NCBI GenBank assembly: GCA_003133225.1
Contig: PKWL01000077.1
Span: 1-63,033, forward strand
Reading direction: 5' to 3'
DNA from: Janthinobacterium sp.
GTDB taxonomy: Bacteria > Pseudomonadota > Gammaproteobacteria > Burkholderiales > Burkholderiaceae_D
DNA length: 63,033 nt
How positions within the stretch are numbered: the stretch's first letter is position 1; every line of letters starts with the position of its first letter. The translations under genes were made by a program, and so were the position numbers. This document shows, one piece after another, positions 10,655-54,630 of the stretch. A model generated the notes under the pieces. That model saw only the letters and a list, made by a program, of their open reading frames with translations, was not told the DNA's origin and made no database searches.

Positions 10655-10659
10655 CCAAT

Positions 10660-20926: not shown

Positions 20927-20978
20927 TTCGCACAAGGAATAACCGCAAGGCCCTACTTCCCATCAACTTGGGGGATTT

Positions 20979-28342: not shown

Positions 28343-28343
28343 C

Positions 28344-28529
28344 ATGGGGATCGAGAACCTGTTTGAACGCGCCAGCAGCATCATGACGGTGATTAGTTTC
28401 GTCACCTTCGTCGGCATCTTGTGGTGGGCCTTCATCAGCTGCCGCAGCAGCGATTTCGAGAGCGCGGCGCAACTGCCGTTTGCCGACGACGACGCCGTCG
28501 CCAACGGCGTGGAGTCCAGCCATGTCTGA
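28344..28529 (+). CDS. ccoQ: cbb3-type oxidase subunit CcoQ
   Basis: 61 residues with a single membrane helix (SIMTVISFVTFVGILWWAFI) and an acidic tail. It sits between ccoO and ccoP and overlaps the ccoP start by eight bases, the expected place for CcoQ, which stabilises the oxidase complex. Confidence 0.85.
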   Translation: MGIENLFERASSIMTVISFVTFVGILWWAFISCRSSDFESAAQLPFADDDAVANGVESSHV

Positions 28530-29451
28530 CTTTACGAGCGGCTTTTGGAACTTTTATATCGTTGTCTTGACCTTGCTCGGGATCGCCGGCTGCGGCCTAT
28601 TGCTGTACTCGCAATCGACCCACAAGGTGAGCGCGCCGAAAGAGGGCGCCGACCCGGTCGGCACCACCGGCCATGTGTGGGACGAGAATCTGAGCGAATT
28701 GAACACGCCGATGCCGCGTTGGTGGATGTGGTTGTTCTATATCACCATCGTGTTCGGGCTCGCTTACCTGTACCTGTACCCGGGCCTTGGCACCTACGCC
28801 GGACGTCTAGGATGGAAATCGAGCGGCCAGTATCAGGAAGAGCTGAAAAAGGCCGACGCCGAATATGGGCCCCTGTTCAAGCAATACCTGACGCAGGACT
28901 TGAAAGTGGTCGCCGCCGACCCCAAGGCGCATGCCATCGGTGAACGGCTGTTTTTGACCTATTGCGCTCAATGCCATGGCTCGGATGCGCGCGGCGGCAA
29001 GGGCTTTCCGAACCTGACCGACAATGACTGGCTGTTCGGCGGCACGCCGGAAACGATCCAGACCACCATCTTGCATGGCCGCAATGGGCTGATGCCGCCC
29101 ATGGGCGCTGCGCTCGGTTCCGACCAGGATGTGGCCAACGTGGCCCAATATGTGCTCAGCCTGTCAGGCTACGGCGCCGACCCGATCAAGGTCGTCTTTG
29201 GCAAAGCCAAATTCGGCGTCTGCATGGCCTGCCACGGCCCCGAAGCCAAAGGCAATCAGGCCATCGGCGCGCCCAACCTGACGGACAAGATCTGGCTCTT
29301 TGGCGGCAGCCCCGAGACGGTGATGGAAACCATCCGCAAGGGCCGCAGCAGCACCATGCCAGCCTTCATTGACTTCCTCGGCGAGGCCAAGGTGCATGTG
29401 CTGGCGGCCTACGTGTGGAGCTTGTCGAACCGCCCGGAATTTAAGCCATGA
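28522..29451 (+). CDS. ccoP: cbb3-type cytochrome c oxidase subunit III (diheme)
   Basis: About 309 residues from ATG 28522; the frame is open to 28480 but the earlier start would lie within ccoQ. The N-terminal membrane part (FWNFYIVVLTLLGIAGCGLL; WWMWLFYITIVFGLAYL) leads to two c-type heme domains, CAQCH (about 151) and CMACH (about 235), each with a downstream Met ligand. LFGGTPETI and LFGGSPETV repeats show the internal duplication of the two domains. It is the electron entry subunit. Confidence 0.96.
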   Translation: MSDFTSGFWNFYIVVLTLLGIAGCGLLLYSQSTHKVSAPKEGADPVGTTGHVWDENLSELNTPMPRWWMWLFYITIVFGLAYLYLYPGLGTYAGRLGWKSSGQYQEELKKADAEYGPLFKQYLTQDLKVVAADPKAHAIGERLFLTYCAQCHGSDARGGKGFPNLTDNDWLFGGTPETIQTTILHGRNGLMPPMGAALGSDQDVANVAQYVLSLSGYGADPIKVVFGKAKFGVCMACHGPEAKGNQAIGAPNLTDKIWLFGGSPETVMETIRKGRSSTMPAFIDFLGEAKVHVLAAYVWSLSNRPEFKP

Positions 29452-38974: not shown

Positions 38975-39571
38975 TTAGTCTTCGTTAGGATCTTTATATT
39001 CCTTTGGCAACAGATGGGCGATTCCCTTGTGGCAATCAATACAGGTCTTGCCATCTTTTTTCGCCTCGGCGTGGTTCAGCTGCGCCTTCGGTTTTTGCTT
39101 CCTGGAATCCATGGCATCGAAATTATGGCAATTGAAGCATTCGCGTGAACCGGACGCCTTCATCCGATCCCATTCGTGCGTCGCCAGCACAATGCGCTTG
39201 GCTTCAAATTTTTCCCGGGTATCGATGTCGCCGGTCAGCTTGCCCCACACTTCGAAGACTGCCTTGGCCTTGCGCAGCATCTTGCGGCCCCATTCATGCG
39301 GCACGTGGCAGTCCGAGCAAACGGCGCGAACACCGGTGCGGTTGCTGTAATGGATGGTTTCCTTGTATTCCATGTAGACGTTGTCGCGCATTTCATGACA
39401 ACCGATACAGAACTCGAGCTTATTGGTCGCTTCCATCCCCGTATTGAAACCGCCCCAAAATACGATACCGGCAATGAAGCCCACCACCAGCAACGTCAGC
39501 AACGAATACTTGGCGCTGGGTCTTCTCAGGATCGCCCAGAAGCCGGTTTTCTTTGATATATCATCATTCAT
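38975..39571 (-). CDS. cymA: NapC/NirT-type tetraheme cytochrome (CymA/ImoA-like)
   Basis: 198 residues: one N-terminal membrane helix (YSLLTLLVVGFIAGIVFWGG), then four CXXCH sites (CIGCH, CSDCH, CFNCH, CIDCH) in the NapC/NirT layout (NTGMEATNKLEFCIGCHEM; SNRTGVRAVCSDCHVPHEW). This inner-membrane quinol/quinone-linked protein exchanges electrons with periplasmic cytochromes. In Sideroxydans-type Mto clusters the same gene lies beside mtoAB. GGAGG is six bases before the ATG. Three hairpins separate it from mtoB, so it may be expressed at a different level. Confidence 0.92.
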   Translation of the reverse strand: MNDDISKKTGFWAILRRPSAKYSLLTLLVVGFIAGIVFWGGFNTGMEATNKLEFCIGCHEMRDNVYMEYKETIHYSNRTGVRAVCSDCHVPHEWGRKMLRKAKAVFEVWGKLTGDIDTREKFEAKRIVLATHEWDRMKASGSRECFNCHNFDAMDSRKQKPKAQLNHAEAKKDGKTCIDCHKGIAHLLPKEYKDPNED

Positions 39572-39736
39572 AATTTTTCCTCCGTAGGTAAAGCAATTAA
39601 TTGAAAAACAGAATGCCGGAGATGCAGCCGGCCATCGGAAAAATCCACGGCGAAAGGCCCTGGATCTTCAAATGGCCTTTTGCTGCCTGCGCATTCATGA
39701 TTTTTCGTGTGCTGCTAAAACGATTTCTCAAAAAAC

Positions 39737-39761
39737 ATTGCAGTGACGGCGTCACTGCAAT
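39737..39761 (-). terminator. Hairpin with T-run between mtoB and cymA
   Basis: ATTGCAGTGACG and its exact complement flank one central base. On the minus strand GTTTTTTGAG follows, so it can act as a rho-independent terminator or attenuator upstream of cymA. Confidence 0.65.
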
Positions 39762-39877
39762 AAAAAGTGCCAGCAAGAGCCCACGCAAAATACACGCGAG
39801 ACACGCTTGCCGAAACAGACTGCGTGCTGTGCCAGCCACAAATTTTTTAAGGCTTTACTTCCTTTTGATGCTCGTAC

Positions 39878-39908
39878 AAAAACGGGGCCATATAAGCGCC
39901 CCGTTTTT
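39878..39908 (-). terminator. Second hairpin in the mtoB-cymA spacer
   Basis: AAAAACGGGGC (39878-39888) pairs exactly with GCCCCGTTTTT (39898-39908) around nine bases. The stem is symmetrical, so it would work as a terminator in either direction. Confidence 0.7.
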
Positions 39909-39936
39909 GAGGATGAAGCTATTACCGGCTACAACA

Positions 39937-39976
39937 GCTCTGTATCAGCGGCGGTATTTTGCCGCTGACACAGAGC
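39937..39976 (-). other. Third, long hairpin directly after mtoB
   Basis: 16-base arms (39937-39952 and 39961-39976) with one mismatch around GGTATTTT. It lies 75 bases downstream of the mtoB stop. No T run follows it; an mRNA-stabilising or processing structure is possible. Confidence 0.55.
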
Positions 39977-40050
39977 CAGACACGATTTACGAGAGCGGCG
40001 AAATGGGCATGGATACAAAGTAAAGATCATGCTCAATTTCACCGGTTTTC

Positions 40051-42450
40051 TTAAAACGTGTAGATGTAGCTCGCGCTAACGACATTGACGATATAGCTTT
40101 GCGGTTGCTGATTGGTTGGCAGCACGCCCGTCGAGTTGAAGCCATATTGCAAGGCGTTATACGCATAGTCAGTCGACCTGAGCTTTTGGAACAAATAACC
40201 CACAGCAATTTTGCTTGCCTTGTTGAGTTGATAGCTGCCGCTCAGTTTTGCCCTAAACATCTCGCTCTTGATATCTGGGGTACTGCCGCAAGTGAGTGAA
40301 GTTGAAAGACCACAGGTAGGATTGGCTACAACACCAGCAGCGTTGGTTTCAGGAGAAGTCGAATAGCTAGTCGTTCCCAACGAGTAGGTCAAATCGCCGC
40401 CGAGATCAAGTTTGCCGCCCATCAACCCCTTTTGCGTTACGTTGACGCCAGCCGTGTTGTCTTTATCTTTGAGCTGGTTGGTAAACGTATTGACGGGAGG
40501 AGTCTGGGGCAGGGGGAAATTTCCCACACCATTCGTCAAATCGCGGTGCCGGTTTTGCGCAGTGAAATACGCTGACACAGCGCCTTTTTCCATATAGGCA
40601 TAGGTGGCATCCAGATTGGCGCTCCAGTTGGCACCCTTTTGCACGCCCAGCGTCGAGTCGTCGTATTTGTCATCGCGGTACTTACCACTTAGACTCACGC
40701 TCAACTTGTCGTTGGCCTGCCAGTTGACACCCGCCTTCAGCATCTGCTCTTTGCGTGAAGCATCAAAGAAGGCAACATACCCTGCATTCTCGTAGCCTTG
40801 CGATTCAGCCTGCAAAGGACTGTAGAAGAACTGGTTGACATCAGCTTTTTTGTCCGCATAGCTATAGCCGGCATTGAAAGTAAGCGCATCGCCGGCCTTT
40901 AGCTTATAGTCGCCAACCAGCTTATTTTCATTGCTTTCAGGAACTTGAGCGCAGGAGGTACTGATATAGCCAAGTCCTGCTGCAACAACAGCGGGCTGCG
41001 CACGCGCACCGGTCTGGTTGTTGTTGGCCAGATCATTGTCGCACCAGCGCTTGATACCCTCATACTCATAAGCCAAATGCAACTTATTGTTCGAGTCAAT
41101 GCGGTAATCCCCGGACAGTTCCGCCTGGGTTTTCTTGTTGCTCATGGGCGCGTTCACCGACGTCTCATTGCCACCACCGAGAGTGATGAACTTGTAGATA
41201 TTCGACGTCGTTTGATTATCGCGCTCGTTATACTTGACCCCGGCGCCCAGCGTCAGATCCTTGATCGAGTTGTCCGTCACCTTCAAATCGGCGTGCGTGG
41301 TCACGACCAGCCCATCGAGCGAAGTTGCCGGCAGTCCGCCTGCCTGCACGATGGCAAACGGATACAGCTCGTTTTGCCTGTTGCGGGCATACGACAAGCC
41401 GCCCACCAATTTCGTTTCTGGCCGGATGCTATAACCACCGGTCAGATTGAACTGATTAAAATCGTTGCTGGGCGCGGTGCTAAGCGTGTCTAGCGGCAAA
41501 TTAAACGCGGTACCCGTGGGGACTGCAGGAGTGCCGCCAGAGACGAACGGGTTCGGCCAGGTCAAGCCGTCGAAGCCGTCGCGCAGGAAGGAGCCATAGT
41601 AACCGACTGTGAAGAAAGCGTCGTCTCCCGCCCAGTTGAGGTTCAACGTGTAATTGTTGGTCGTGTAATTGGTTGGATTCAACAAAAAGATGCTTTTCTC
41701 GTTGCCAAAGGTGCTGCCATTCGGTCCCTTACCGTCGGCATCGGTACCCGACCCGATGAGTTTGGCGCCGCTTTGCGCGATCCGGTTGTAATCGAACTTG
41801 ACGTTCCATTGCTTGTCGAAATTGTATCCTGCGGCAAAGCCGGTCGTCGAACGGTCCGAGTGAACATCAACCGTGTGGAAGTCACCTAGCTGAGCGGGGG
41901 TCAACGCTTGTGCGCCTTGCAATCCGCCCACTTGGGCTGCACCGAGGACAGGCAAGGCGGTATTGACAACGCCAAAATTAGATGGGAAGGTGAAGGCGTT
42001 ACCGCCCATACGTCCCACTAACGGCGTTTGAAAATCGTCCGCGATGTTGTGATGCAACTCATCGTAGGTGATGCCAAAATTCCATTTCCCTTGGTCGCTT
42101 ATGGTCGCGCCCAGATTGCGGGAAGTGGTGCCGAGGTCGGTTCCGTTGACGTCCCAACGAGTCGTACCTACACCGCCGTCGTAGGCATTGTAGGCGTCGC
42201 CGCCGCGAATGCGGAAGTTGCCAATCACATCCGTGCCTTTTTCGTCGAGGCCGTTATACTCGCCGAATTTGGCGGAGTCCCGGGAGACATGCTCGGCGCC
42301 GAGTTCGATAAAGTTGGTCGGGCGTGTCAAGGCCGCGACGTCATCGTCCGCAGCAACCGCAACGAGCGGCATCGCGAACATTGCCAGCAAGGCCCCTTGC
42401 ACCGCCAGGGTGAGAGTGCCGACAACAAAAATTTCTTTATTTGTTTTCAT
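40051..42450 (-). CDS. mtoB: MtrB/PioB-family outer-membrane porin-like protein
   Basis: 799 residues with a signal peptide (TLTLAVQGALLAMFAMPLVAVA cut near AADDD). A long beta-barrel follows, with repeated alternating strands (WNVKFDYNRIAQSG, TLNLNWAGDDAFFTVGYYGS, SVSLSGKYRDDKYDDSTLG) and a terminal aromatic residue (ASYIYTF). It matches the MtrB/PioB family of decaheme-associated barrels, which sheathe the decaheme cytochrome through the outer membrane. No N-terminal CXXC pair is present; the few Cys are in the central and late parts. mtoA is immediately upstream. Confidence 0.9.
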   Translation of the reverse strand: MKTNKEIFVVGTLTLAVQGALLAMFAMPLVAVAADDDVAALTRPTNFIELGAEHVSRDSAKFGEYNGLDEKGTDVIGNFRIRGGDAYNAYDGGVGTTRWDVNGTDLGTTSRNLGATISDQGKWNFGITYDELHHNIADDFQTPLVGRMGGNAFTFPSNFGVVNTALPVLGAAQVGGLQGAQALTPAQLGDFHTVDVHSDRSTTGFAAGYNFDKQWNVKFDYNRIAQSGAKLIGSGTDADGKGPNGSTFGNEKSIFLLNPTNYTTNNYTLNLNWAGDDAFFTVGYYGSFLRDGFDGLTWPNPFVSGGTPAVPTGTAFNLPLDTLSTAPSNDFNQFNLTGGYSIRPETKLVGGLSYARNRQNELYPFAIVQAGGLPATSLDGLVVTTHADLKVTDNSIKDLTLGAGVKYNERDNQTTSNIYKFITLGGGNETSVNAPMSNKKTQAELSGDYRIDSNNKLHLAYEYEGIKRWCDNDLANNNQTGARAQPAVVAAGLGYISTSCAQVPESNENKLVGDYKLKAGDALTFNAGYSYADKKADVNQFFYSPLQAESQGYENAGYVAFFDASRKEQMLKAGVNWQANDKLSVSLSGKYRDDKYDDSTLGVQKGANWSANLDATYAYMEKGAVSAYFTAQNRHRDLTNGVGNFPLPQTPPVNTFTNQLKDKDNTAGVNVTQKGLMGGKLDLGGDLTYSLGTTSYSTSPETNAAGVVANPTCGLSTSLTCGSTPDIKSEMFRAKLSGSYQLNKASKIAVGYLFQKLRSTDYAYNALQYGFNSTGVLPTNQQPQSYIVNVVSASYIYTF

Positions 42451-42471
42451 AATAAATTTCTTTCCCTGAAA

Positions 42472-43437
42472 TTAGCGATGCAGAAACGCGCCGGATGGGG
42501 AGTTCGACCCATGGACCATGACATGGCAATTCATGCAATCGCGAGCGCCAGCACTTGGGTTCACAGCTTTGCCTGCCGCAGCAGTAAGACCACCTTGAAC
42601 GCCGGCGACGTTGCCAGCAATTGGGCCACTACTTTGATGGGGACCGTTATGGCACTCGATGCACAGGAACGGAGCGCGCGATTTCAGGAGCGGGGTGATG
42701 TTCGAACCGTGCGGCGTATGGCAGTTGGTGCAGTCTTCCGTCACAGGCTGATGTTCCCACAGGAACGGGCCGCGTTTTTCAGCGTGGCAAGTAAAGCAGG
42801 TTTCCGTCACGGTATTTTTCTTGAGCAACTTTGGACCGGCCGAGCCATGCGGATTGTGGCAGTCTGAGCAAACGACCTTGCCGGCATCAATAGGATGGGT
42901 GGAGATTTTGTGGGTGTCGGCTCTTTGCTCTTTGTGGCAGGCAAAGCAGACTTCGGTTTGCGTCTTCTTGCTCAGCACCTTGTCAGCTGGTGCATGCACC
43001 GTATGGCAGTCATTGCAAGCGAGCTGGTTGATCTGATGCTGACTACCTTCCCAATGGGTCCGAGCGGTTCCCTTGTGGCAAGTCAGGCAGACAGCGGCGC
43101 GCGCTTTTTCATCGGACTTTTTAAATGCGCCCTTGTTGAAAACGACATCCGGTGCGGCGCGGCTTTTCCCGTTCTGATCGCCTTTCAAGTGCTCTTCACT
43201 TGAACCATGGCAAGATTGGCAGCCGGGGGTGCGTGCATCGCCCTTGACGCCGTGTTTGGTCTGGTAAATTGACAAGACGGGTTTGTTTTCTGACTCATCG
43301 TGACACTTAGTACAAACCGCATCGCCCTTCAAGGTTCTATCAGCAGCTGGAGCATTGTTCTGTGCCAGTGCCGATCCACCGATTCCTAGGCTCCCTATGA
43401 GCCCGACTACCGCCAACATTTGTCGCATGAACTTCAT
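42472..43437 (-). CDS. mtoA: Periplasmic/outer-membrane decaheme c-type cytochrome (MtrA/MtoA/PioA family)
   Basis: 321 residues with a signal peptide (MLAVVGLIGSLGIGGSALAQ) and exactly ten CXXCH motifs: CTKCH, CQSCH, CLTCH, CNDCH, CFACH, CSDCH, CFTCH, CTNCH, CIECH and CMNCH. Their roughly even spacing and length match MtrA/MtoA. With the barrel MtoB it would form a heme wire across the outer membrane. GGGAGAG lies before the ATG. It lacks the long N-terminal extension I recall for PioA, which favours the MtoA/MtrA type. Direction of electron flow (Fe(II) oxidation or metal reduction) cannot be read from sequence. Confidence 0.95.
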   Translation of the reverse strand: MKFMRQMLAVVGLIGSLGIGGSALAQNNAPAADRTLKGDAVCTKCHDESENKPVLSIYQTKHGVKGDARTPGCQSCHGSSEEHLKGDQNGKSRAAPDVVFNKGAFKKSDEKARAAVCLTCHKGTARTHWEGSQHQINQLACNDCHTVHAPADKVLSKKTQTEVCFACHKEQRADTHKISTHPIDAGKVVCSDCHNPHGSAGPKLLKKNTVTETCFTCHAEKRGPFLWEHQPVTEDCTNCHTPHGSNITPLLKSRAPFLCIECHNGPHQSSGPIAGNVAGVQGGLTAAAGKAVNPSAGARDCMNCHVMVHGSNSPSGAFLHR

Positions 43438-43581
43438 GTTATCTCTCCCGAGAATTCATTGCTTTTAAAAAAAATAAACGAAACATCAAAAAATGTCGCT
43501 GCTATTGTCGCAGCTTGAATTTCCCCAGTTTCGCGTCGATCCTAGACGAACCTCTTCAGGCTCGAAATTCCTTGTTCGCTA

Positions 43582-43932
43582 TTACAGCGACAAAATCCAA
43601 TCAACAACGTTTTTGATTTCGCTCATATCCTTGGTCTTGATGATCTTGTGATCTTCTTCATGACCGTCTGGGAATTTGGCTTTTTCACCGCTCGTGATAT
43701 GTTTGATCAGGCGCGCTTCTGCGTCGCTTTTGCCGCGGTATTTCTCGGCAACGGAGTGGTACGAAGGGCCGTCCTTGGCCTTGGTGATCGAATGGCATTT
43801 GAAGCAGCCGTTTTGCCGAACCATCGTTTCTGCCGCGGCGGCGTCGAGCGCATAGGCGGAAGTCGAAATGAGCCCCGTCGAAGCGAAGGCGATCATTGCG
43901 ACCAGCTTGCTGATGTTACATTTTGATTTCAT
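43582..43932 (-). CDS. mtoD: Monoheme class I cytochrome c (MtoD-like)
   Basis: 116 residues: signal peptide (LVAMIAFASTGLISTSAYAL), then ETMVRQNGCFKCHSITKAKDG with one heme site, DGPSYHSVAEKYRG, and a late Met (KTKDMSEIKNVVDWILSL) as likely axial ligand. It is the small periplasmic carrier that sits beside mtoAB in Mto clusters, shuttling electrons between CymA and MtoA. First gene behind the sigma54 promoter candidate at 44002-44018. Confidence 0.88.
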   Translation of the reverse strand: MKSKCNISKLVAMIAFASTGLISTSAYALDAAAAETMVRQNGCFKCHSITKAKDGPSYHSVAEKYRGKSDAEARLIKHITSGEKAKFPDGHEEDHKIIKTKDMSEIKNVVDWILSL

Positions 43933-44001: not shown

Positions 44002-44018
44002 AGCAAAAATAAGGCCAG
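44002..44018 (-). promoter_or_regulatory. Sigma54 (-24/-12) promoter candidate of the mto operon
   Basis: On the minus strand the bases read CTGGCCTTATTTTTGCT. GG and GC are separated by exactly ten bases, and TGGC and TTGCT match the -24 and -12 elements. Transcription would start near 43991, about 60 bases before mtoD. Confidence 0.65.
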
Positions 44019-44299: not shown

Positions 44300-44313
44300 T
44301 TGATTTAAATCAA
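44300..44313. promoter_or_regulatory. FNR box upstream of the mto operon
   Basis: TTGATTTAAATCAA is an exact and fully palindromic FNR-consensus match. No good -10 lies at the class II distance on either strand, so it may act from a distance or as a repressor site. Confidence 0.6.
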
Positions 44314-45007: not shown

Positions 45008-45024
45008 CTGGAACGAAAATTGCT
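45008..45024 (+). promoter_or_regulatory. Sigma54 (-24/-12) promoter candidate of the ccsA-like gene
   Basis: CTGGAACGAAAATTGCT has GG and GC ten bases apart and differs from the consensus CTGGCACG-N4-TTGCT at a single position. Transcription would start near 45035, giving a leader of about 150 bases. Confidence 0.65.
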
Positions 45025-45188
45025 GTGACCAAATTAATGGAGGTCTTCTGAACTTTGCCGTCGTCTTTGTTTCGGCGTCGGCATTGTCCTGGGCTCCAAC
45101 TGGGAAAGTGTGTGGATCCGTCGAGCTTGACGGGGGTTGCATGAGTGCAGGTCCCCGCTCACAAGCCACGGCAAAGAGAGAAATCGCA

Positions 45189-46175
45189 ATGAATCGAGGG
45201 TATGTGCCCATTAACGGTCAGTCTCGGCTTGTGCCCGCCGTGTTATGCGCTCTGGTCGTCATCGGGCTCGCACTCATCGGTGCGATGGAGTACCTGGGAG
45301 TGGTGAGTCTGACGGCAAACGCGCCGTTGAAGCAGCTTTTTTCCTATAAATTGATTAGCTACGCCAATCTTCTACTGATTGGATCAACCATTCTTTACGT
45401 CGCCCACCTGTGGTTTACGGCGCCGGCCGTGGGACTGTGGGCCACTGGCACGGCGGCCGTCGGGGCCCTTGGCCTCGTAGCCGGACTGGTGGCGCGCGCG
45501 ACGGAACATCACACCGGGCAGATTCCCCTGATTGGTCTGTCCGAGGTGATGTCGCTGTTTATAGCCATGACCGTCGTCATTTACCTGGCCATGGAAAGAG
45601 CCTATCGCACCCGCTCGGCGGGCGCCTTCGTGATGCCGATCGTGGCCATTGCCGTATTGTTCGAGGCATGGCTCGTATCGGACTATCTGGTGTCGCCGGG
45701 GAACCGCCTTCCTCTCCTTCGCAGCTACCTGATACATATTTATGTTTTGGCCAATCTCCTTGCCTACAGCGCATTTGCGGTGGCGGCCGCGGTGGGCGTC
45801 ATGTACTTGCTGCGCCAGCACGTGGAAACTCATCCTCTGGCACCCGGGTTTGCCCTGCGTGAACGGCTTGGCTTGGCGCCAATAGCGCGCCTCCTGCATC
45901 TGGCCATTTTCCTGGGCTTTGCCGTGTTTTCTTGCGCGACGCTGCTTGGCATTGCCTTAGCCCATGAGGCCGGGGAGCCGTTTTGGGCATGGGATGCGAA
46001 AAAAACAGCGGCGCTCCTAGTTTGGATTTGGTATTTCGGCTACTTTTATCTGCACTATGGAAAAAAATGGCGCGGCATGCGCATGGCGTGGTGGGCCATC
46101 CTCGGCTTTGCATTGACCGTGTACGGCTTCCTCGGTCTGAACCTGTTTTTGCCCGTGTTACATGCATATGGTTAA
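45189..46175 (+). CDS. CcsA/ResC-type cytochrome c biogenesis membrane protein
   Basis: About 328 residues from ATG 45189 with AAAGAGAG upstream; the frame is open to 45084 without further hydrophobic sequence. Eight or so membrane helices and the tryptophan-rich heme motif region GEPFWAWDAKKTAALLVWIW, then YLHYGKKWRGMRMAWWAILG, identify the CcsA heme-handling family (system II), also shared with CcmC and CcmF. No CcsB/ResB partner is beside it, and a complete system I (ccmA-I) follows 7 kb away. Placement next to the mto genes suggests help in maturing the multiheme cytochromes. Confidence 0.8.
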   Translation: MNRGYVPINGQSRLVPAVLCALVVIGLALIGAMEYLGVVSLTANAPLKQLFSYKLISYANLLLIGSTILYVAHLWFTAPAVGLWATGTAAVGALGLVAGLVARATEHHTGQIPLIGLSEVMSLFIAMTVVIYLAMERAYRTRSAGAFVMPIVAIAVLFEAWLVSDYLVSPGNRLPLLRSYLIHIYVLANLLAYSAFAVAAAVGVMYLLRQHVETHPLAPGFALRERLGLAPIARLLHLAIFLGFAVFSCATLLGIALAHEAGEPFWAWDAKKTAALLVWIWYFGYFYLHYGKKWRGMRMAWWAILGFALTVYGFLGLNLFLPVLHAYG

Positions 46176-46802
46176 AGTAAGCGTCAGGTAAAGGGACGCT
46201 AAGCTGGCACCGCACGCTAAATAATCGCGGCTTGCTGGCCAGAATATCTTTTGGACCTGCATGTCGAACCGAATGAGTTAACATGGAGCTTCTTGACGGT
46301 AAATGAATAATTGGTGTCGCGCCCGCTTCCCGAGCGCGCGCGGCATGGGGTGAATGCGGCTGGGGGGGCGCCGATGGATGGGCGCTATTTTTCCCTAGGC
46401 GCATCGCGCCTTAGTCCGTGCGCAGGCATCCCTTGCGGGAATCGGCTTCGAACGCCGCGCGTGGCCCAAGCCCGCATGTGCGTCTCAATTTTTAATTTTC
46501 AGCGTAAGCGATGTTCTACCATCCTAGCGTGGGACAATGTCGGGCCAGCGCGCGCTCCTTAGTTCGTTCCACTGAGCCGGACCATGGCGGCGCCCTGGCG
46601 CGGCCATGGCAAATACTTCTAATATGTTGGGATAGCAAATCTGGCTTACTCGCATGTTGGCAGCGCCCATGGGCTTGTCCGCGGACCCGTGTGAATGCGC
46701 CAGGCCGGGCGAACTGGACAATTTCGCGAGTTCGTGCGGGCGCGGCCGAGGAAAAAGCTGGTTCGCCACTAAACAATTGAGTATGTTCTTGATAGCAAAT
46801 TG
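46176..46802. other. Intergenic region upstream of the mto-linked kinase
   Basis: About 630 bases without a supported gene. A weak hairpin (AGCGTC, nine bases, GACGCT) follows the ccsA-like gene. I could not find a -24/-12 pair with correct spacing or a clear sigma70 promoter for the kinase. Confidence 0.35.
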
Positions 46803-48377
46803 ATGAAGCTGATATCTTTTTTCACCCGGCGCCCGATGCAGCCCGACAACGCGCGGGCAGCGGGTGTCCCCGCGCCCGCGCCGAAGGAACCGCGTTTCGT
46901 CCTGTCCATCAGAACCAAGGGTTTGATCGTCATCACGACGCTCATTGCCTATTCGATCATTATCGCCATTTTTGCATTTAATCAAAAAAACCTCTTGTTG
47001 CACGATTTCGAAGAAATACAAGGGGCGCTTGAAACCGAGGCCATGTTAAAGCAGGCCGACCTATCGGCCTTCCATGCCGTCATGGCGATCTTTGCCAACG
47101 TCGATGCGGCCGACCATGTGGAGGCCATGCAGCGCATCGAAATGCATCATCAGACCTTGCTCGATCTGGAGGCCGAGTTGTCGGCGCGCCTGCCCAACGA
47201 TTCCTTAAACGAGGCTGATTTGAACGCGGACTGGGAACTGGCCAATAAGAACCCCTCCAAGGCCAATTTGAACCGGCTGGTCGTCGAACTGATCAAAGTG
47301 AAGAATGATTTCGCGTTACTCACGGAACAAGTGCAGGAAATCCGTAAATCCATGTCCGCCCGTTACCGCACCCAGACCGATTCGGTGGCGATGACCACCC
47401 TCTTGCTCGGCATGCTGGGCCTGGGCCTCTTGGGCGCGATCATCATCTTGTTTTTCCGCCGCTTGACGGACGATTTGCGCATCCTGCAAAGCAGGGCGCT
47501 CGACATCGTGAATGGCTTTCGCGGTCAGCCCATGGCCATTACGCGTCACGACGAAGTGGGCCGCCTGATGGTCGCCGTCAATAACATGGCGGCCACACTC
47601 GACTTGCGCGATAAAGAGCTGATGCTGGAGCGGCAAAAGTATTTTCATCAGGAAAAGATGGCGGCAATTGGCACCTTGGCCGCCGGCGTCTCGCACGAAA
47701 TCGGCAATCCCATCGCCGCCATTTCCGGCATCGCGCAAGACATGATCGAACGGCGCACGGGGAACGGCGCCGATTGCAGGACGGGAAATTGTCACGATTG
47801 CCGGCCCGACCTCATTTATGTGCAGACCGAGCGCTTGGCCGCCATCACGCGCGAAATTGCGGAGTTCGCGTCACCGCGCGCGGTTGAGCCGCAGCTACTC
47901 GACTTGAATGCGCAACTGCGCAGTACCAGCAGTTTGATCCGCTATGACAAGCGCCTGCAGGGCGTCACCTTGCGCCACGATTTGGATCCCCAGTTGCCGG
48001 CGATTTACGGCGTCGCCGATCAACTGACCCAGCTCATCATGAATCTGTTGATCAATGCCATGGATGCCCTGGAAGGCAAGGCGGACGGCACCCCCACCAT
48101 CGTCATCACCACGCGCGCCGACCCTGAGCGAGCCTGCGTCGTGATCGAGGACAATGGCCAAGGCATCGACCAGGAAACGCTGGCCCGCGTTTTCGAGGCT
48201 TTTTTCACGACCAAGCCGGCCGGGAAAGGCACCGGCCTCGGATTGTCCTTGTGTTACTCGATCACAAAGCGCCACGGCGGCACCATCGAGATCGATTCCA
48301 CCCCGGGTTTGGGGACGCGGGTCCAGGTTTTTTTCCCTTTGAACGATACAGTTTATAACGAAATGAATTCACTATGA
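46803..48377 (+). CDS. Membrane sensor histidine kinase of an NtrB-like pair
   Basis: 524 residues. Two membrane helices (GLIVITTLIAYSIIIAIF and TTLLLGMLGLGLLGAIIILF) bracket a 150-residue, mostly helical periplasmic domain rich in acidic residues and Met, then HAMP, HisKA (GTLAAGVSHEIGNPIAAISG) and HATPase_c (NLLINAMDAL, IEDNGQGI, GKGTGLGLSLCYSI). Between the two HisKA helices is an unusual insertion with CRTGNCHDCRPDL, a CX4CX2C arrangement. It overlaps the response regulator gene by four bases, so the two form one signalling unit. The signal is unknown; redox state, metal or quinone are possibilities. Confidence 0.9.
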   Translation: MKLISFFTRRPMQPDNARAAGVPAPAPKEPRFVLSIRTKGLIVITTLIAYSIIIAIFAFNQKNLLLHDFEEIQGALETEAMLKQADLSAFHAVMAIFANVDAADHVEAMQRIEMHHQTLLDLEAELSARLPNDSLNEADLNADWELANKNPSKANLNRLVVELIKVKNDFALLTEQVQEIRKSMSARYRTQTDSVAMTTLLLGMLGLGLLGAIIILFFRRLTDDLRILQSRALDIVNGFRGQPMAITRHDEVGRLMVAVNNMAATLDLRDKELMLERQKYFHQEKMAAIGTLAAGVSHEIGNPIAAISGIAQDMIERRTGNGADCRTGNCHDCRPDLIYVQTERLAAITREIAEFASPRAVEPQLLDLNAQLRSTSSLIRYDKRLQGVTLRHDLDPQLPAIYGVADQLTQLIMNLLINAMDALEGKADGTPTIVITTRADPERACVVIEDNGQGIDQETLARVFEAFFTTKPAGKGTGLGLSLCYSITKRHGGTIEIDSTPGLGTRVQVFFPLNDTVYNEMNSL

Positions 48378-49753
48378 AATCCCTGGACGTGATGGTGATT
48401 GACGATGAGCCGGCGATCCGCCAGATACTGGCAGCGCATTTGCTCAAGGCCGGCTGCAACGTGTGTCAGGCGCCCAACGGCCTCGAGGCCTTGGAACGTT
48501 TGTCCAAGGGCGATATCGATGTCGCCATTTGCGACATCAAGATGCCCGACATCAGCGGCATCGAACTGGTGCGCCGGGCCCGCGCGTCCGGCCTCGAGAC
48601 CAATTTCATCATGATGACGGCGTTCGCATCGGTCGACACGGCGATCGAAGCCATCCAAGCCGGCGCCTCCGATTACATGATCAAACCGGTACGCAACGAA
48701 GAGGTGCTGCACCGCCTCCTAAAAATTAGCGACATGCGCGGCCTGCGCGCCGAAAACCGCGTCCTGCGCAGTTTGGTGCAGGGCAATAAGGAAGACCAGT
48801 TCGCCTTCCTCTCGCCCGTCATGCGCGATCTCGATCGCTTGATCGACAAAGTCTCGCCCACCGACAGCACGGTCCTCGTGACCGGGGAAAGCGGCACCGG
48901 CAAGGGCGTCATCGCGCGCCGCATTCATCAGCAAAGCCCGCGCACGAATGCCCCATTCATCCCCGTCAACTGCGGCGCGTTGCCGGAAAATCTGATTGAA
49001 AGCGAATTGTTCGGCCATACCAAGGGCGCCTTTACAGGCGCCGACAAGGCTCGAAAAGGCCTCTTTCTGGAAGCCGATGGCGGCACCATTTTTCTCGATG
49101 AAATCGGCGAATTGCCGCTGCTCATGCAAGTAAAACTGCTGCACGTGATCGAAGAGAAATCAATCAGGGCCGTCGGCAGCGAGCAGGCGCGGCGGGCCGA
49201 CGTGCGGATCGTGGCGGCCACCAATCGCGACCTGGCCCAAATGGTGGCCGAAGGGCGCTTTCGCGAAGACTTGTATTTTCGCTTAAGCGTTTTCCAGATC
49301 CATGTCCCGCCCTTGCGTGAGCGCAGCGAGGATATGGCGAGATTGGTGCAGTTTTTCCTGCACCGGGGCATGAAACGCATGAACGTGGAGGGCGCCATTT
49401 CAGTCGATCCGGAAGTCGAAGAGCTGCTCGACGCCTACGAATGGCCGGGCAACGTGCGCGAAATGGAGAACGTCATCGATCGCGCCTTGATTTTGGCGGA
49501 CAAAGGGCAAATCACTTGCGCCGATCTGCCCCCGCAAATCATCAAGAATGGGCGCGCCGCCACGCCCGAATTGGCGATACAAGATTGCGGCGAGAGCCTG
49601 CGTGACCAGGTCCGGCGCTTCGAGAGTGCGTTAATCGGCAAAGCGATCAATGAGGCCGATGGCGATCGCCGCGTGGCCGCGCAAAAATTGGGGATGGGCT
49701 TGTCCAGCCTGTATCGCAAACAGGAAGAGTTTGAAACGCTTGGACTGCTGTAG
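48374..49753 (+). CDS. Sigma54-dependent response regulator (NtrC family)
   Basis: 459 residues with receiver (VMVIDDEPAIRQIL, CDIKMPDISG, MIKPVRNEE), AAA+ domain (Walker A GESGTGKG, GAFTGAD loop that contacts sigma54, GGTIFLDEIGELPL, LRERSEDM) and a Fis-type HTH (DRRVAAQKLGMGLSSLYRKQ). All motifs needed for sigma54 activation are intact. Two sigma54 promoter candidates lie within 5 kb upstream, at mtoD and the ccsA-like gene, and no other obvious target is near. It is the likely direct activator of the mto region. Confidence 0.95.
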   Translation: MKSLDVMVIDDEPAIRQILAAHLLKAGCNVCQAPNGLEALERLSKGDIDVAICDIKMPDISGIELVRRARASGLETNFIMMTAFASVDTAIEAIQAGASDYMIKPVRNEEVLHRLLKISDMRGLRAENRVLRSLVQGNKEDQFAFLSPVMRDLDRLIDKVSPTDSTVLVTGESGTGKGVIARRIHQQSPRTNAPFIPVNCGALPENLIESELFGHTKGAFTGADKARKGLFLEADGGTIFLDEIGELPLLMQVKLLHVIEEKSIRAVGSEQARRADVRIVAATNRDLAQMVAEGRFREDLYFRLSVFQIHVPPLRERSEDMARLVQFFLHRGMKRMNVEGAISVDPEVEELLDAYEWPGNVREMENVIDRALILADKGQITCADLPPQIIKNGRAATPELAIQDCGESLRDQVRRFESALIGKAINEADGDRRVAAQKLGMGLSSLYRKQEEFETLGLL

Positions 49754-49894: not shown

Positions 49895-51277
49895 GTGAAC
49901 AGGCCTCCAAGCGCTACGATCTATGTGCGCGCCACTGCCGGCTGCTACACCAGAACGCGCTGGCTGTGCATAGGAGTCACGCAGCTGGTCTTCTACGGCT
50001 TGCCGTGGTTGCGCTGGAACGGACGCCCAATGGTGCTGTTCGACTTGGCGGCGCGAAAATTTTATCTCTTTGGCATCGTGCTGTGGCCGCAAGACCTCAT
50101 TTATCTGGCCGCGCTTTTGATCATCTGCGCCTGCACGCTTTTCCTGTCAAGTGCGCTTGTCGGGAAACTCTGGTGCGGCTTCGCGTGCCCGCATACGGTC
50201 TTCACTGAAATTTTCATGTGGATTGAGCGCCGCATAGAAGGGGGGCGCAGCGCGCGCATGCGGCTAGACATGGAACCCGCCTCGCGCCGCAAATTGCAAA
50301 AGAAAGCGATCAAGCATGGCGCCTGGTTGCTGCTCGCGTTTTGGACCGGATTGACTTTTGTCGCTTATTTCACGCCGATCCGGGCTCTGCTGCAGGGCTT
50401 GGCGAGCGCCGCTCTAGGCCCGTGGGAATGGGTTTGGATTGCACTCTATGGCGCGCTCGCCTACGTCAACGGGGGCTTGATGCGGGAGGCCGTGTGTCGC
50501 GACATTTGCCCCTATGCGTGTTTCCAGAGCACCCTCTTCGACCGCGATACGCTGGTCGTGACCTACGACACGGCGCGCGGCGAGCCGCGCGGCCTGCGCA
50601 ATCGGAAAAGTCTTAGCCAAAACCTGCGCCAGGGCGATTGTATCGACTGCACGCTATGCGTCCAGGTGTGCCCGACCGGCAGCGACATCCGCCGCGGTTT
50701 GCAATCCGATTGCATGGGTTGCGCCGCCTGTATCGATGCTTGCGATCTGGTGATGGACAAAATCGGGGCAGTGCGCGGCTTAATTCGCTATTCAACGCAC
50801 AACGCCCTCGCGCGCCAACTGTCGCCGCGGCAAATGCGCGCGCGCATCCTGCGCCCGCGCGTGCTGGCCTACGCGGGCATGCTGGCAGCGCTTTGCGCCG
50901 CTTTTGCCGGCTCGCTTGGCACGCGCCTGCCCTTGAAGTTGGACGTGATGCGTGACCGCCTGGCCTTGGAGAGCGAGGCGGCCGAGGGCGTCGTCGCGAA
51001 CGTCTATCGGCTCCACATCATGAATACGGACGAGCGAGCGCATCGTTACCATATCGCCGTCTCCGGAATCGACACCATCACGCTCGCATCACCCGCCCAA
51101 GTCGTCCTGGAAGGGGGCGCCGCACGCGACGTGGCGGTGCGCGTTGGCGTCACCCGCGGCCACACCGCGGCGGGGGCGCACCCCATCGTCTTCGAGCTGC
51201 AAGACGAGAACGATGCCCGCCTGCGCCTGCGGGAAAAAGCCGTGTTTTTGGTGGCACGCGCGAAAGCGGCGCCCTGA
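49895..51277 (+). CDS. CcoG-like polyferredoxin membrane protein (copy 2)
   Basis: 460 residues, GTG start. Same plan as ccoG at 29468: WLCIGVTQLVFYGLPWLRWNG, CGFACPHTVFTEIF, 4Fe-4S motifs CIDCTLCVQVCPTG and CMGCAACIDAC, and the Ig-like tail NVYRLHIMNTDERAHRYHI. It begins 142 bases after the sigma54 regulator in the same direction and is not part of a cco operon. It may supply reduced copper or another electron-transfer step for this region. The clear divergence from copy 1 in sequence but not in motifs suggests an old duplication with retained function. Confidence 0.88.
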   Translation: MNRPPSATIYVRATAGCYTRTRWLCIGVTQLVFYGLPWLRWNGRPMVLFDLAARKFYLFGIVLWPQDLIYLAALLIICACTLFLSSALVGKLWCGFACPHTVFTEIFMWIERRIEGGRSARMRLDMEPASRRKLQKKAIKHGAWLLLAFWTGLTFVAYFTPIRALLQGLASAALGPWEWVWIALYGALAYVNGGLMREAVCRDICPYACFQSTLFDRDTLVVTYDTARGEPRGLRNRKSLSQNLRQGDCIDCTLCVQVCPTGSDIRRGLQSDCMGCAACIDACDLVMDKIGAVRGLIRYSTHNALARQLSPRQMRARILRPRVLAYAGMLAALCAAFAGSLGTRLPLKLDVMRDRLALESEAAEGVVANVYRLHIMNTDERAHRYHIAVSGIDTITLASPAQVVLEGGAARDVAVRVGVTRGHTAAGAHPIVFELQDENDARLRLREKAVFLVARAKAAP

Positions 51278-51528: not shown

Positions 51529-51577
51529 TTGATCTGGATCATAAAAATGCGAATACCATGTTGGTATCATGCTGCTT
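51529..51577 (+). promoter_or_regulatory. FNR/DNR-type class II promoter
   Basis: TTGATCTGGATCAT (51529-51542) is one base from the FNR consensus. TATCAT (51565-51570) gives a start near 51577, placing the box centre exactly at -41.5. A second inverted repeat ATACCA-TGT-TGGTAT (51553-51567) overlaps the -10. Confidence 0.75.
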
Positions 51578-51605
51578 GATCTTGAACAAGAAACATGAAA
51601 AAACG

Positions 51606-52283
51606 ATGGACGATGTCACGCCCAACCTGAAAAGCATTCTCGCCAATACGTCCTTGTTCCAGATGTTAGACGAGAGCCAGCTTGACGAAATCGTAGCCAA
51701 GACCAGCCCGCTGCGCCTAGCCCAGAACATCTGCGTCGTCAATCAAGGCGACGCCGCCGAAGGCACATTCTGGGTCGTCTATGGCCAGGTGCAAATTGGC
51801 CTGTATAGCAAGCAGGGCGGCGAAAAGACGCTCGAGATTTTGGGACAGGGCAAATGCTTCGGCCTCGGCGAAATGCTGCTGGAGCAGCCCCATCTGGCTT
51901 TTGTGAAAACCACCATCGACTCCATGTTACTGCACACCGAACGCGCTGCGATTTTGCAAATTGCGCAGGAAAATTTCAGTTTTGCCCATTCCTTGATGAC
52001 CTGCGTCGGGCGCCAGCTGTATGGACTGGTGCGGGACATCGGCAGTTACGCGCAAACGGCAAGGCAACGCCTGGCCGGGTATTTACTGCAGCAACGCCGG
52101 CGCGAGAGCAGCGACGATATTGAACTGGTTGCCAACAAGACGCTCATTGCTTCCCGCCTCAGCCTGACGCCGGAAACCTTGTCCCGTTTGTTCCATGACT
52201 TTTCCGCCGAAGGATTGATCAAGGTCTCCGGACGCCACATCACGTTACTCGACTGTGAAAAATTGTCGGCCTTGATTTCCTAA
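51606..52283 (+). CDS. Crp/Fnr-family regulator without Fe-S cysteines (Dnr-like)
   Basis: About 225 residues from ATG 51606 (MDDVTPNLKSIL). It has a cyclic-nucleotide-binding-like domain (GDAAEGTFWVVYGQVQIGLY, GLGEMLLEQPH) and C-terminal HTH with SRLSLTPETLSRLFHDF, keeping the E--SR residues that read FNR-type half-sites. The N-terminal Cys cluster of Fnr is absent, as in Dnr/NnrR proteins that sense nitric oxide through heme. Its own promoter carries an FNR-like box at -41.5, so it is likely under Fnr control or autoregulated. ccmA follows 69 bases later. Confidence 0.88.
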   Translation: MDDVTPNLKSILANTSLFQMLDESQLDEIVAKTSPLRLAQNICVVNQGDAAEGTFWVVYGQVQIGLYSKQGGEKTLEILGQGKCFGLGEMLLEQPHLAFVKTTIDSMLLHTERAAILQIAQENFSFAHSLMTCVGRQLYGLVRDIGSYAQTARQRLAGYLLQQRRRESSDDIELVANKTLIASRLSLTPETLSRLFHDFSAEGLIKVSGRHITLLDCEKLSALIS

Positions 52284-52352: not shown

Positions 52353-52988
52353 ATGAGTCTACAAGCGTATCACTTGGCTTGCACGCGCGGCGAGCGCGAA
52401 CTGTTCCAAAACATCGGCTTCGACCTCCATGCGGGCGACGCCATGCGGGTCGCCGGCGCCAACGGCAGCGGCAAAACCAGCCTGCTGCGCATGCTGTGCG
52501 GTCTTGCCTTTCCGGCGGCGGGAGAAGTGCGCTGGAACGGGCGCAACATCCGCTCCGCGCGCGAGGAATTCGGCAGCGAACTGATCTATCTCGGCCATGC
52601 CAACGGCGTCAAGGACGATCTGCTGGCCTGGGAAAACGTGGTCGTGGCCGCGACCTTGTCGGGCACCCCGGTCGGGCGCGACCAAGCTTACGCCGCCCTC
52701 GGCGCACTCGGTTTGGCCAGGGCCGCCGATTTGCCGACGCGCGCCTTGTCGCAAGGGCAACGCAAACGGGTCGCGCTGGCGCGCCTGCGCCTCAGCATGC
52801 AAACGCCGCTGTGGATACTCGACGAGCCCTTCGCCGCGCTCGACCAGGATGCGGTCACGGAACTATGCGCGACGCTCAACCTGCATCTAGCGCAGGGCGG
52901 CATGGTCATTTATACAACTCATCAGGAAATCAATCTGACTTCGCAGCGCTCGCTCCATCTCGACCTGAGCCGGGATACCCTATGCTAA
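52353..52988 (+). CDS. ccmA: Heme exporter ATPase CcmA
   Basis: 211 residues, ABC ATPase of the CcmABCD complex that releases holo-CcmE for cytochrome c maturation. Walker A GANGSGKTS, signature LSQGQRKRVALARL, Walker B LWILDEPFAALD and H-loop TTHQE are all present. Preceded by AGAGGGGGC. Overlaps ccmB by seven bases. Confidence 0.95.
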   Translation: MSLQAYHLACTRGERELFQNIGFDLHAGDAMRVAGANGSGKTSLLRMLCGLAFPAAGEVRWNGRNIRSAREEFGSELIYLGHANGVKDDLLAWENVVVAATLSGTPVGRDQAYAALGALGLARAADLPTRALSQGQRKRVALARLRLSMQTPLWILDEPFAALDQDAVTELCATLNLHLAQGGMVIYTTHQEINLTSQRSLHLDLSRDTLC

Positions 52989-53650
52989 AGGCACTTTGCT
53001 GCGTCATCCGGCGCGACTTGCTGCTGGCGTTTCGGCGCCGCTCGGACGTGTTGACCACCTTATTCTTTTTTATTATCGTCGCTACCCTGTTTCCCTTGGG
53101 CGTGGGACCTGAACCTGCGCTCTTGCGCACAATGGCACCGGGCATTCTCTGGGTGGCCGCGCTGCTGGCATCAATGCTGGCGCTCGGACGTTTGTTCGCG
53201 CTCGATTTTGCGGACGGGACCCTCGAGCAAATGCTTCTTTCCGCCGAACCTTTGACCGTGATCGTGATCGGAAAAGTGATGGCGCATTGGCTGGTATCGG
53301 GTCTGCCGCTGGTCTTATTGGCGCCCTTGCTGGGCGTCCAGTTCGACCTCTCGCGCTCGTCCGTGGCGGTCCTGTTTTTCAGCCTGCTGGTGGGGACCCC
53401 CGTATTGAGCCTGATCGGCGCGATCGGCGCCGCCCTGACGCTGGGCGTGCGCGGCGGCGGGGTGCTGGTATCGCTGCTGGTGCTGCCTTTGTACATCCCC
53501 GTCTTGATCTTCGGCGCCGGTGCGGTCGGCGCCGAAGCGAGCGGCTTGGGTAGTAGCGCGCATTTGCTGCTGCTAGGTGGCATACTGGCAGGCGCAGCCG
53601 CGCTAGCGCCCTGGGCCACCGCGGCCGCCTTGCGCATTTCCCTCGAATGA
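52982..53650 (+). CDS. ccmB: Heme exporter membrane protein CcmB
   Basis: 222 residues from ATG 52982. Six hydrophobic segments; family stretches RDLLLAFRRRSDVLTTLFFF, FADGTLEQMLLS and LIGAIGAALTLGVRGGGVL. It is the permease partner of CcmA. A longer frame to 52319 exists but only reads ccmA in another frame. Confidence 0.94.
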   Translation: MLKALCCVIRRDLLLAFRRRSDVLTTLFFFIIVATLFPLGVGPEPALLRTMAPGILWVAALLASMLALGRLFALDFADGTLEQMLLSAEPLTVIVIGKVMAHWLVSGLPLVLLAPLLGVQFDLSRSSVAVLFFSLLVGTPVLSLIGAIGAALTLGVRGGGVLVSLLVLPLYIPVLIFGAGAVGAEASGLGSSAHLLLLGGILAGAAALAPWATAAALRISLE

Positions 53651-53847
53651 CATGGCACGACAATTGCTTAAAAGGAATAAAACTGATTTTATCACGCGCC
53701 CTTGCGCCACCCCCTGCCTTCTTGGCTGTAACACGCGGGCGACGCCGAGCGGGCGCAACGCGTCTTTTTCTCATTTTCGGGAAATCCAATTTCCTCGTGT
53801 AGCGGGGCGGCGTAGCCCCCCAGACCCTATTTTTTGGAGCATATAAG

Positions 53848-54630
53848 GTGTCCATTTCCAACAACATTCCTATCGGCGCACGCGAATCACACCGCATCCA
53901 CTGGTACAAATACGCGTCGCCACAGACTTTTTTCCCGATTGCGGGAAAATTGATCCCCTGGTTTTCCGCTATCGCGCTTGTCCTTGGCGTCATTGGTGTC
54001 TATGTCGGCTTTTTCATGGCGCCAACCGACCGTCAGCAAGGCGACGCCTATCGCATCATTTTCCTGCACGTGCCGGCGGCATGGATGTCAATGGTGGTCT
54101 ACCTGATCATGGCATTTTGGGCCGCCATGGGCTTAGCCTTTAATACGCGCCTGTCGTCCATGATGGCCAGCGCGCTCGCGCCCACGGGCGCCATGTTTAC
54201 TTTCCTCGCTTTGTGGACAGGCGCGCTGTGGGGCAAGCCGACCTGGGGCGCCTGGTGGGTCTGGGACGCGCGCCTGACCTCGGAACTGATCTTGTTGTTC
54301 TTGTATGTCGGCTTCATGGCGCTGCAGGCCGCGATCGACGAACCGCGGCGGGCCGATCGGGCCGGCGCCGTGCTCGCCTTGGTCGGCGTCATCAATGTCC
54401 CCGTCATTTATTTTTCCGTTCAATGGTGGAACACCTTGCACCAGGGCTCGTCGATCAACTTGAAGAGCGCCCCGAGCATGGCGCTCACCATGCTGATGGG
54501 CATGCTGATCATGGCGCTCGCGTTCTGGGCGTACACGATTGCCATGACGATGCTGCGCCTGCGCTGCATCGTGTTAGAGCGCGAGCGGCATACCGATTGG
54601 TGCAAACAATTCATGGAGACACAACGATGA
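53848..54630 (+). CDS. ccmC: Heme lyase component CcmC
   Basis: 260 residues, GTG start. Six helices with the WWD heme motif (WGAWWVWDARLTSELILLFL) and flanking His residues (IIFLHVPAAWMSM; WWNTLHQGSSIN). CcmC loads heme on to CcmE. About 200 bases separate it from ccmB, an unusually wide gap for this operon, with no gene or terminator visible in it. Confidence 0.95.
   Translation: MSISNNIPIGARESHRIHWYKYASPQTFFPIAGKLIPWFSAIALVLGVIGVYVGFFMAPTDRQQGDAYRIIFLHVPAAWMSMVVYLIMAFWAAMGLAFNTRLSSMMASALAPTGAMFTFLALWTGALWGKPTWGAWWVWDARLTSELILLFLYVGFMALQAAIDEPRRADRAGAVLALVGVINVPVIYFSVQWWNTLHQGSSINLKSAPSMALTMLMGMLIMALAFWAYTIAMTMLRLRCIVLERERHTDWCKQFMETQR

Follow-up and report, generated by a model that had tools for sequence, protein, structure and literature searches.

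An Mto-type gene cluster near cytochrome c maturation System I genes in a Janthinobacterium sp. draft genome without ResB

The Mto pathway of Sideroxydans lithotrophicus ES-1 comprises mtoD, mtoA, mtoB, imoA and pmcA (slit_2494-2498). Here, an mto-type cluster with the gene order mtoD-mtoA-mtoB-imoA and the cytochrome c maturation (ccm) genes near it are described from contig PKWL01000077.1 of the Janthinobacterium sp. draft assembly GCA_003133225.1. The whole contig of 63,033 nucleotides (C131) was analysed and is referred to as the window, and the host assembly is referred to as G000; other G-numbers denote genomes of relatives and L-numbers denote loci. The papers cited by PMC number are represented by excerpts. 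The family of the host very likely includes the Oxalobacteraceae, to which the genus Noviherbaspirillum presumably belongs. This genus was named among those rich in pet and pio/mto components (PMC10654088), and mto-type genes in Oxalobacteraceae are already partly in print. In ES-1, ImoA is served by PmcA, whereas MtoD shows no interaction with it and possibly delivers electrons to a terminal oxidase; the motif CXXCHXM at heme I is a signature of ImoA that is absent from CymA (PMC13390432). Regulated iron oxidation and mtoD expression were reported for Sideroxydans CL21, with no regulator named in the excerpt (PMC12442390). Two CcmH/Nrf-type biogenesis proteins are among the genes distinct to iron-oxidising Gallionellaceae (PMC10734462), and ccmA-I genes were found beside six mtrCAB clusters, with four strains keeping System II of cytochrome c maturation (PMC8805035). 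For the locus described here, it is considered reasonably probable that the mto set brings electrons across the outer membrane into the periplasm, the donor being Fe(II) outside the cell or another solid, and that the nearby System I is, as predicted from sequence, the sole maturation system of the cell.

The initial annotation had described a monoheme cytochrome, a ten-heme cytochrome, a large barrel and a four-heme NapC/NirT cytochrome in one direction, named mtoD-mtoA-mtoB-cymA. Four intact open frames were indeed found on the minus strand in this order, with 1, 10, 0 and 4 CXXCH motifs (Table 1). The best match of MtoD was PDB 4XXL, which we take to be MtoD of ES-1. MtoA and MtoB matched chain A (E=1.4e-67) and chain B (E=1.4e-14), respectively, of PDB 6R2Q, the MtrAB of Shewanella baltica (PMC10654088), and MtoB additionally matched PF11854 with 401 bits across the whole model. 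Family models, relatives of solved structure, gene order and tree position all agree with the Mto assignment. The tetraheme protein reached 297 bits against TIGR02161, slightly below the cut-off of 310.6, and its heme I motif is CIGCHEM. Since this corresponds to the CXXCHXM given for ImoA, imoA is, judged by the motif, a better name than cymA; the earlier NapC/NirT tetraheme assignment stands and the earlier gene name is replaced. TIGR03507, which we take to represent the OmcA/MtrC family, was used as the one model for surface cytochromes of this type and had no match in the whole assembly. Within the window no surface multiheme cytochrome was seen either, in agreement with the earlier statement that no MtrC/OmcA lies nearby; outside the cluster, CXXCH frames of 70 aa or more are limited to two in the cbb3 region and one kinase. 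The genes flanking mtoAB are mtoD and imoA, and a pioC gene for a high-potential iron-sulfur protein (HiPIP) was not recognised there; the search for HiPIP genes was confined to this neighbourhood. A hemerythrin-domain protein (window 37845-38525) adjoins the imoA end of the cluster.

Table 1. Positions of the mto, ccm and associated features in the window.
Feature	Position	Strand	Basis
cbb3 oxidase ccoO and ccoP-like frame	27728..29451	+	ccoO TIGR00781 over cut-off; two-heme frame 28480-29451
imoA/cymA, inner-membrane NapC/NirT tetraheme cytochrome	38975..39571	-	198 aa; 4 CXXCH; PF03264 252 bits
mtoB, outer-membrane barrel	40051..42450	-	799 aa; no CXXCH; TIGR03509 455 bits (cut-off 240)
mtoA, decaheme cytochrome c	42472..43437	-	321 aa; 10 CXXCH; TIGR03508 291 bits (cut-off 192)
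mtoD, periplasmic monoheme cytochrome c	43582..43932	-	116 aa; 1 CXXCH; PDB 4XXL 135 bits, E=1.1e-38; PF00034
sigma54-like -24/-12 site, 85 bp upstream of mtoD	44002..44017	-	1 mismatch
exact FNR-type palindrome TTGATTTAAATCAA, between mtoD and CcsA-like gene	44300..44313		window scan
sigma54-like site upstream of CcsA-like gene	45009..45024	+	1 mismatch
CcsA-like membrane protein (start uncertain)	45084..46175	+	PF01578; TIGR03144 117 bits, below cut-off 187.6
sensor histidine kinase	46800..48377	+	HisKA/HATPase; NCxxC in dimerisation-domain region
sigma54-activating response regulator	48374..49753	+	Response_reg, Sigma54_activat and Fis HTH
second ccoG (FixG-like)	49895..51277	+	TIGR02745 455 bits
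CRP/FNR-family regulator	51558..52283	+	between second ccoG and ccmA
ccmA	52353..52988	+	TIGR01189 212 bits, over cut-off
ccmB (start approximate)	53003..53650	+	TIGR01190 249 bits, over cut-off
sigma54-like site between ccmB and ccmC	53653..53668	+	perfect, 0 mismatches
ccmC	53848..54630	+	TIGR01191 over cut-off
ccmD candidate, 57 aa	54627..54800	+	open frame; position and membrane-like sequence only
ccmE	54797..55291	+	NF009729 over cut-off
ccmF, heme lyase	55288..57279	+	TIGR00353 (general CcmF/NrfE) 763 bits, over cut-off
ccmG, ccmH, ccmI	57373..59595	+	ccmG TIGR00385 and ccmI TIGR03142 over cut-off; ccmH only TIGR03147 (NrfF), below cut-off

A complete ccmA-I set starts 8.4 kb from the mto cluster, and seven of its genes (ccmA, ccmB, ccmC, ccmE, ccmF, ccmG and ccmI) pass curated cut-offs. 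The ccmF product stays below the cut-off of TIGR03145 (NrfE) and exceeds that of NF007691, a model also named NrfE. Divergently from mtoD, the order of genes is CcsA-like gene, histidine kinase, sigma54-activating regulator, second ccoG, CRP/FNR-type regulator and ccmA-I. The linked genes span approximately 38.9 to 59.6 kb; the four-gene cluster outlined by the initial annotation was thereby retained and its limits were found too narrow. That annotation had overlooked the sigma54 regulator and the ccm genes linked to the cluster, as well as the System II loss at another place in the genome.

The absence of System II was assessed by searching ResB in 40 genus genomes (including G000) and 73 chosen family genomes. 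ResB was not found in G000 and was present in all 39 other genus genomes; likewise, a CcsB-type match (TIGR00353, loose threshold) was obtained in 39/39 of these and none in G000. The native site of System II lies on the unbroken contig C25, on which mrcA and lysA are followed by a cytochrome c4-like gene, compared with mrcA, lysA, msrQ, msrP, ccsB, resB and the c4-like gene at the same site of G028; the msrQ-msrP-ccsB-resB stretch also occurs in G002, G003, G011 and G031. The names mrcA, msrP, msrQ and c4 were assigned by reading the proteins, and lysA passes TIGR01048. Since C25 is contiguous there, an assembly gap does not explain the absence of resB-ccsB at the native site. Cytochromes requiring heme attachment are still encoded, namely by ccoO, the ccoP-like frame, mtoA, mtoD, imoA and the c4-like gene, and because these remain while System II genes are missing, System I is likely the only route of the cell to c-type cytochromes. 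ResB is also lacking in G080, which has MtoA, and is present in its genus mates G106, G155 and G167, which have CcmF and no MtoA; G028, with MtoA, retains both maturation systems. The CcsA-like protein (CcsBA 7S9Y, E=2.4e-4; 35-38% identity to CcsB of the genus) was considered as a part of System II and rejected, as no ResB was found in the genome. It adjoins the kinase/regulator pair, and a role in heme handling or sensing is possible.

The association of mto and ccm was analysed across 392 family genomes, with CcmF counted at E below 1e-70 and fragments included. CcmF was found in 72 of them, i.e., in 18/19 genomes with MtoA versus 54/373 without (Fisher 1.4e-13), and the lone MtoA-positive genome without CcmF, G123, is 68% complete. 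Within genera, co-occurrence of MtoA and CcmF was observed 13 times versus 5.4 expected (p=6e-7), as counted from a listing of matches that does not contain six genomes without a match. Both genes are on one contig in 11 family genomes, with the nearest copies within 15 kb in 11/11, and on separate contigs in the remaining seven genomes with both. The genes adjoin one another in the order mtoD-A-B-cymA-ccm in G080 and in the order mtoA-mtoB-cymA-ccm in L016, and ccm genes are near mtoA in 12/78 loci, the flanks being at most 7 kb. In the genus, CcmF exceeds the cut-off in 4/40 genomes.

That such a set is not standard equipment in this lineage, as the initial annotation had put it, is borne out by the counts: MtoA was present in two of the 40 genus genomes (G000 and G028) and in 19/392 family genomes, strong matches only, with two weak matches (G126 and G148; E ~1e-4) left out. 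An identity of at least 70% was reached only in G000, G080, G075 and G072 among the family genomes. Phylogeny had been proposed as a check. In a quick tree of 101 rows, among which reference MtrA, PioA and ES-1 MtoA are not included, the window MtoA pairs with L004, from an Oxalobacteraceae metagenome-assembled genome (G080; support 96), and belongs to a 39-row clade (support 99) together with Gallionellaceae, the clade holding Gallionella, Sideroxyarcus, Ferrovaceae and Polaromonas. The two MtoA copies of G028 fall outside this clade, one in a 41-row clade and the other in a small separate group, and G000 and G028 therefore likely acquired MtoA separately. Between L004 and the window, MtoB is 45-46% and MtoA 72-76% identical, a gap that points to mosaic or uneven evolution. 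In composition the mto genes deviate, with a GC content of 0.524 and a tetranucleotide distance of 0.277 versus 0.092 for the part of the window between 14 and 36 kb, which is close to other contigs. Because of this composition and the absence from 38/40 genus genomes, horizontal acquisition of the mto genes is likely.

A distance of 3 kb separates the mto cluster from the start of the two-component pair. In four loci of relatives, L184 (G080), L193 (G311), L194 (G284) and L208 (G216), the kinase is 63-67% and the regulator 76-80% identical, and the pair is found near mtoD and ccm; in the latter three, which are of one genus, a ccoG is present as well. The NCxxC motif of the kinase is conserved in 5/5 sequences (window and four relatives), and redox or metal sensing is a guess. 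The designation PilS/PilR, suggested by the position next to a ccsA-like gene, was rejected for the pair, as contig C50 carries another such pair (41% and 27% identity to the window proteins) and as relatives have the pair in the vicinity of mtoD and ccm genes. The window was scanned for the sigma54-like consensus TGGCAYN5TTGCW with up to one mismatch. Only 3/50 open reading frames of the window, namely mtoD, the CcsA-like gene and ccmC, have a site within 250 bp upstream. Across loci, a site was found upstream of mtoD in 7/76 (p=1e-5) and upstream of ccmC in 10/24 (p=2e-14), the rows being related and these p values optimistic; the counts were 7/96 for mtoA and 2/17 for ccmA, and 0/30 and 0/31 for the controls cymA and ccmF. 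All five loci with the pair (window, L184, L193, L194 and L208) have a site close upstream of mtoD, the distance in L208 not being computed, and the mtoD-upstream site is also present in G028. For the CcsA-like gene, no site was seen at the corresponding place in L184. FNR-type palindromes within one mismatch occur ten times in the window versus 1.54 expected, and three are exact: the one in Table 1, one at 20978 before hemN and one at 26205 between a copper-ATPase gene and ccoO. Apart from the FNR-type palindrome, no convincing inverted-repeat regulator sites shared between loci were found. Regulation of mto and ccm by the sigma54 pair and FNR is a prediction from sequence motifs. In L193 and L208, the kinase/regulator/ccoG/ccm block lies beside mtoD and a 664-aa eight-heme cytochrome, so that the regulator may act in islands of the MtrCAB type as well.

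Electron uptake, likely Fe(II) oxidation, is the direction we infer for the conduit; it is favoured because a Calvin-cycle operon is present in the same assembly, with the RuBisCO large subunit beside CbbX, phosphoribulokinase, fructose bisphosphatase and a CbbR-like regulator (searched in G000). By homology to 6R2Q, MtoA threaded through the MtoB barrel would take electrons from the surface. MtoD, following the work on ES-1, would pass some of them to the cbb3 oxidase, which is the likely final acceptor. This is probably the likeliest branch here, since PmcA, the partner of ImoA in ES-1, is not in the window. ImoA would exchange electrons with the quinone pool and thereby feed CO2 fixation by the Calvin-cycle operon. 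Via sigma54 promoters, mtoD would be activated by the kinase/sigma54-regulator pair, as might be the pair's own operon and the genes from ccmC on, and FNR would add low-oxygen control. The earlier description of the genome as cbb3-bearing is supported by family models for ccoO and ccoG and by the two-heme ccoP-like frame. Sulfur lithotrophy is hinted at as well, since the cbb operon is flanked (L205, 4363-5982) by a frame for a small cytochrome with one heme and by a flavoprotein resembling sulfide dehydrogenase (weak model match).

Several observations, given in this paragraph and the next, weigh against an uptake conduit combined with a sole maturation system nearby. In composition the ccm genes resemble the host (GC 0.60, distance 0.125), and G057 carries ccoG-fnr-ccm-nrdJ without mto, so that ccm may here predate mto. 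Among the 72 CcmF-positive genomes, ResB is lacking in 8/18 with Mto versus 13/54 without (p=0.14, not significant; the weak ResB matches of G047 and G349 were scored as absence), and System II loss may therefore follow from possession of System I alone. Moreover, the CcsA-like protein shows, as far as homology indicates, that a relative of CcsB exists in G000, though without ResB. The window holds seven sigma54-like sites, a number not above random expectation (6.81). Because no site precedes ccmC in the other four pair-bearing loci (L184, L193, L194 and L208) and none precedes the kinase (0/4 loci tested), control of ccm by the pair is the weakest link. A chance meeting could account for much of this: System I would have been resident, System II lost as redundant, and mto, with its deviating composition, would later have landed near ccm with no functional bond. 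The nearly complete presence of CcmF in MtoA-positive genomes and the excess within genera are, however, not expected from such a meeting, nor are the spacing within 15 kb in every genome with both genes on one contig, the contiguous order in G080 and L016 and the loci with ccm near mtoA. A meeting by chance is thus held to be unlikely, if to be taken seriously.

The conduit might also run outward, as an MtrAB-like exit. Fe(III), electrodes or DMSO-type acceptors would then receive the electrons, and the tetraheme protein would act as a quinol oxidase in the manner of CymA. In Shewanella, CymA can be substituted by ImoA, and transport in either direction is possible for Mtr conduits (PMC13390432, PMC8805035); the family model of MtoA is named DmsE, and the FNR box suggests low-oxygen control. 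The MtoA clade of the window alone does not exclude MtrC-type partners: since a large multiheme cytochrome is nearby in 9/39 of its rows and in 14/41 rows of the second large clade, neither is purely with or without such a partner. PmcA has no counterpart in the window, the stretch from 29.5 to 63 kb being free of additional CXXCH frames of 70 aa or more. The Calvin-cycle operon itself is on contig C134 (L205), which is off-composition (GC 0.55, distance 0.189), perhaps a second acquired region, and whose link to the genus is not backed by a marker. An outward conduit is nevertheless considered quite improbable in view of the lack of a match to the one OmcA/MtrC-type model, the absence of a recognised DmsAB-type gene beside the mto cluster, the clade shared with Gallionellaceae, the heme I motif as in ImoA and the presence of the Calvin-cycle operon. 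Finally, the assembly is a draft of 5.74 Mb in 158 contigs (98.4% complete) with 2.7% contamination, which also counts against the uptake reading, and the foreign composition of mto would fit a binning artefact, by which the window contig or its mto part came from another organism. LipA, found in 39/40 genus genomes (G028 being without it), is however encoded in G000 by a single copy on the window contig, its full-length matches in relatives being 83-91% identical, and the flank on the lipA side shows 74-82% DNA identity to relatives, similar to contig C25 (67-84%). The window contig is therefore assigned to the host genome. As lipA, mto and ccm share this contig, the flank resembles other contigs in composition, and ResB is also missing from C25, which matches the genus, an artefact of binning is very improbable.

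Other features of the window were recorded. A Tn3-family transposase gene with a DDE domain (10451-12391), a sign of mobile DNA, lies about 26 kb from the mto cluster, and a hybrid histidine kinase (2116-4893) with a Tll0287-like domain and one CXXCH is possibly a heme-based sensor. No tRNA and no Rfam match at gathering score were found in the window.

With electron uptake through mto and maturation by System I alone as the preferred reading, a likely oxidiser of iron or a solid donor is added to a lineage in which the trait is rare. The reported link between conduit and ccm is extended from mtrCAB to mtoAB, with counts, and loss of System II at its native site is documented in a genome carrying System I near mto. 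Furthermore, a candidate dedicated regulator of the mto genes, the kinase with its sigma54 activator, is named. A further-reaching proposal is tentative and doubtful as it stands: an acquired electron-uptake island with its own cytochrome factory and sigma54 switch may have assumed a housekeeping role, its System I replacing the native System II, so that all c-type cytochromes including cbb3 depend on the island and their supply is partly under the uptake regulator. If true, this dependence would bind the genome to the island and account for the fixation of extracellular electron transfer after horizontal transfer. In the titles and abstract openings returned by the literature searches, neither loss of System II with mto nor a sigma54 regulator of mto was recognised.

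Compared with MtrCAB, the locus differs by the lack of a surface decaheme cytochrome of the MtrC/OmcA type, as judged by one model in the assembly and by CXXCH frames in the window. With PioABC of Rhodopseudomonas palustris it shares the decaheme cytochrome and the barrel of the MtrB/PioB family, whereas imoA and mtoD adjoin mtoAB here and no pioC HiPIP gene was recognised there. Like the mtrCAB clusters with ccmA-I, it combines a conduit next to System I genes with horizontal spread; unlike the host, those clusters have mtrC, four of the named strains retain System II, and a native site that has lost System II is not described in the excerpt (PMC8805035). The Mto gene set of ES-1 is closely matched by the decaheme MtoA, the MtoB barrel, MtoD, the NapC/NirT protein with CXXCHXM at heme I and the lack of an adjacent MtrC; pmcA, which was not treated as defining, is not in the window. 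Beyond this gene set, the host carries the linked ccmA-I, the sigma54 pair and the second ccoG, belongs to a family including Oxalobacteraceae in which mto is rare, and has lost the native System II.

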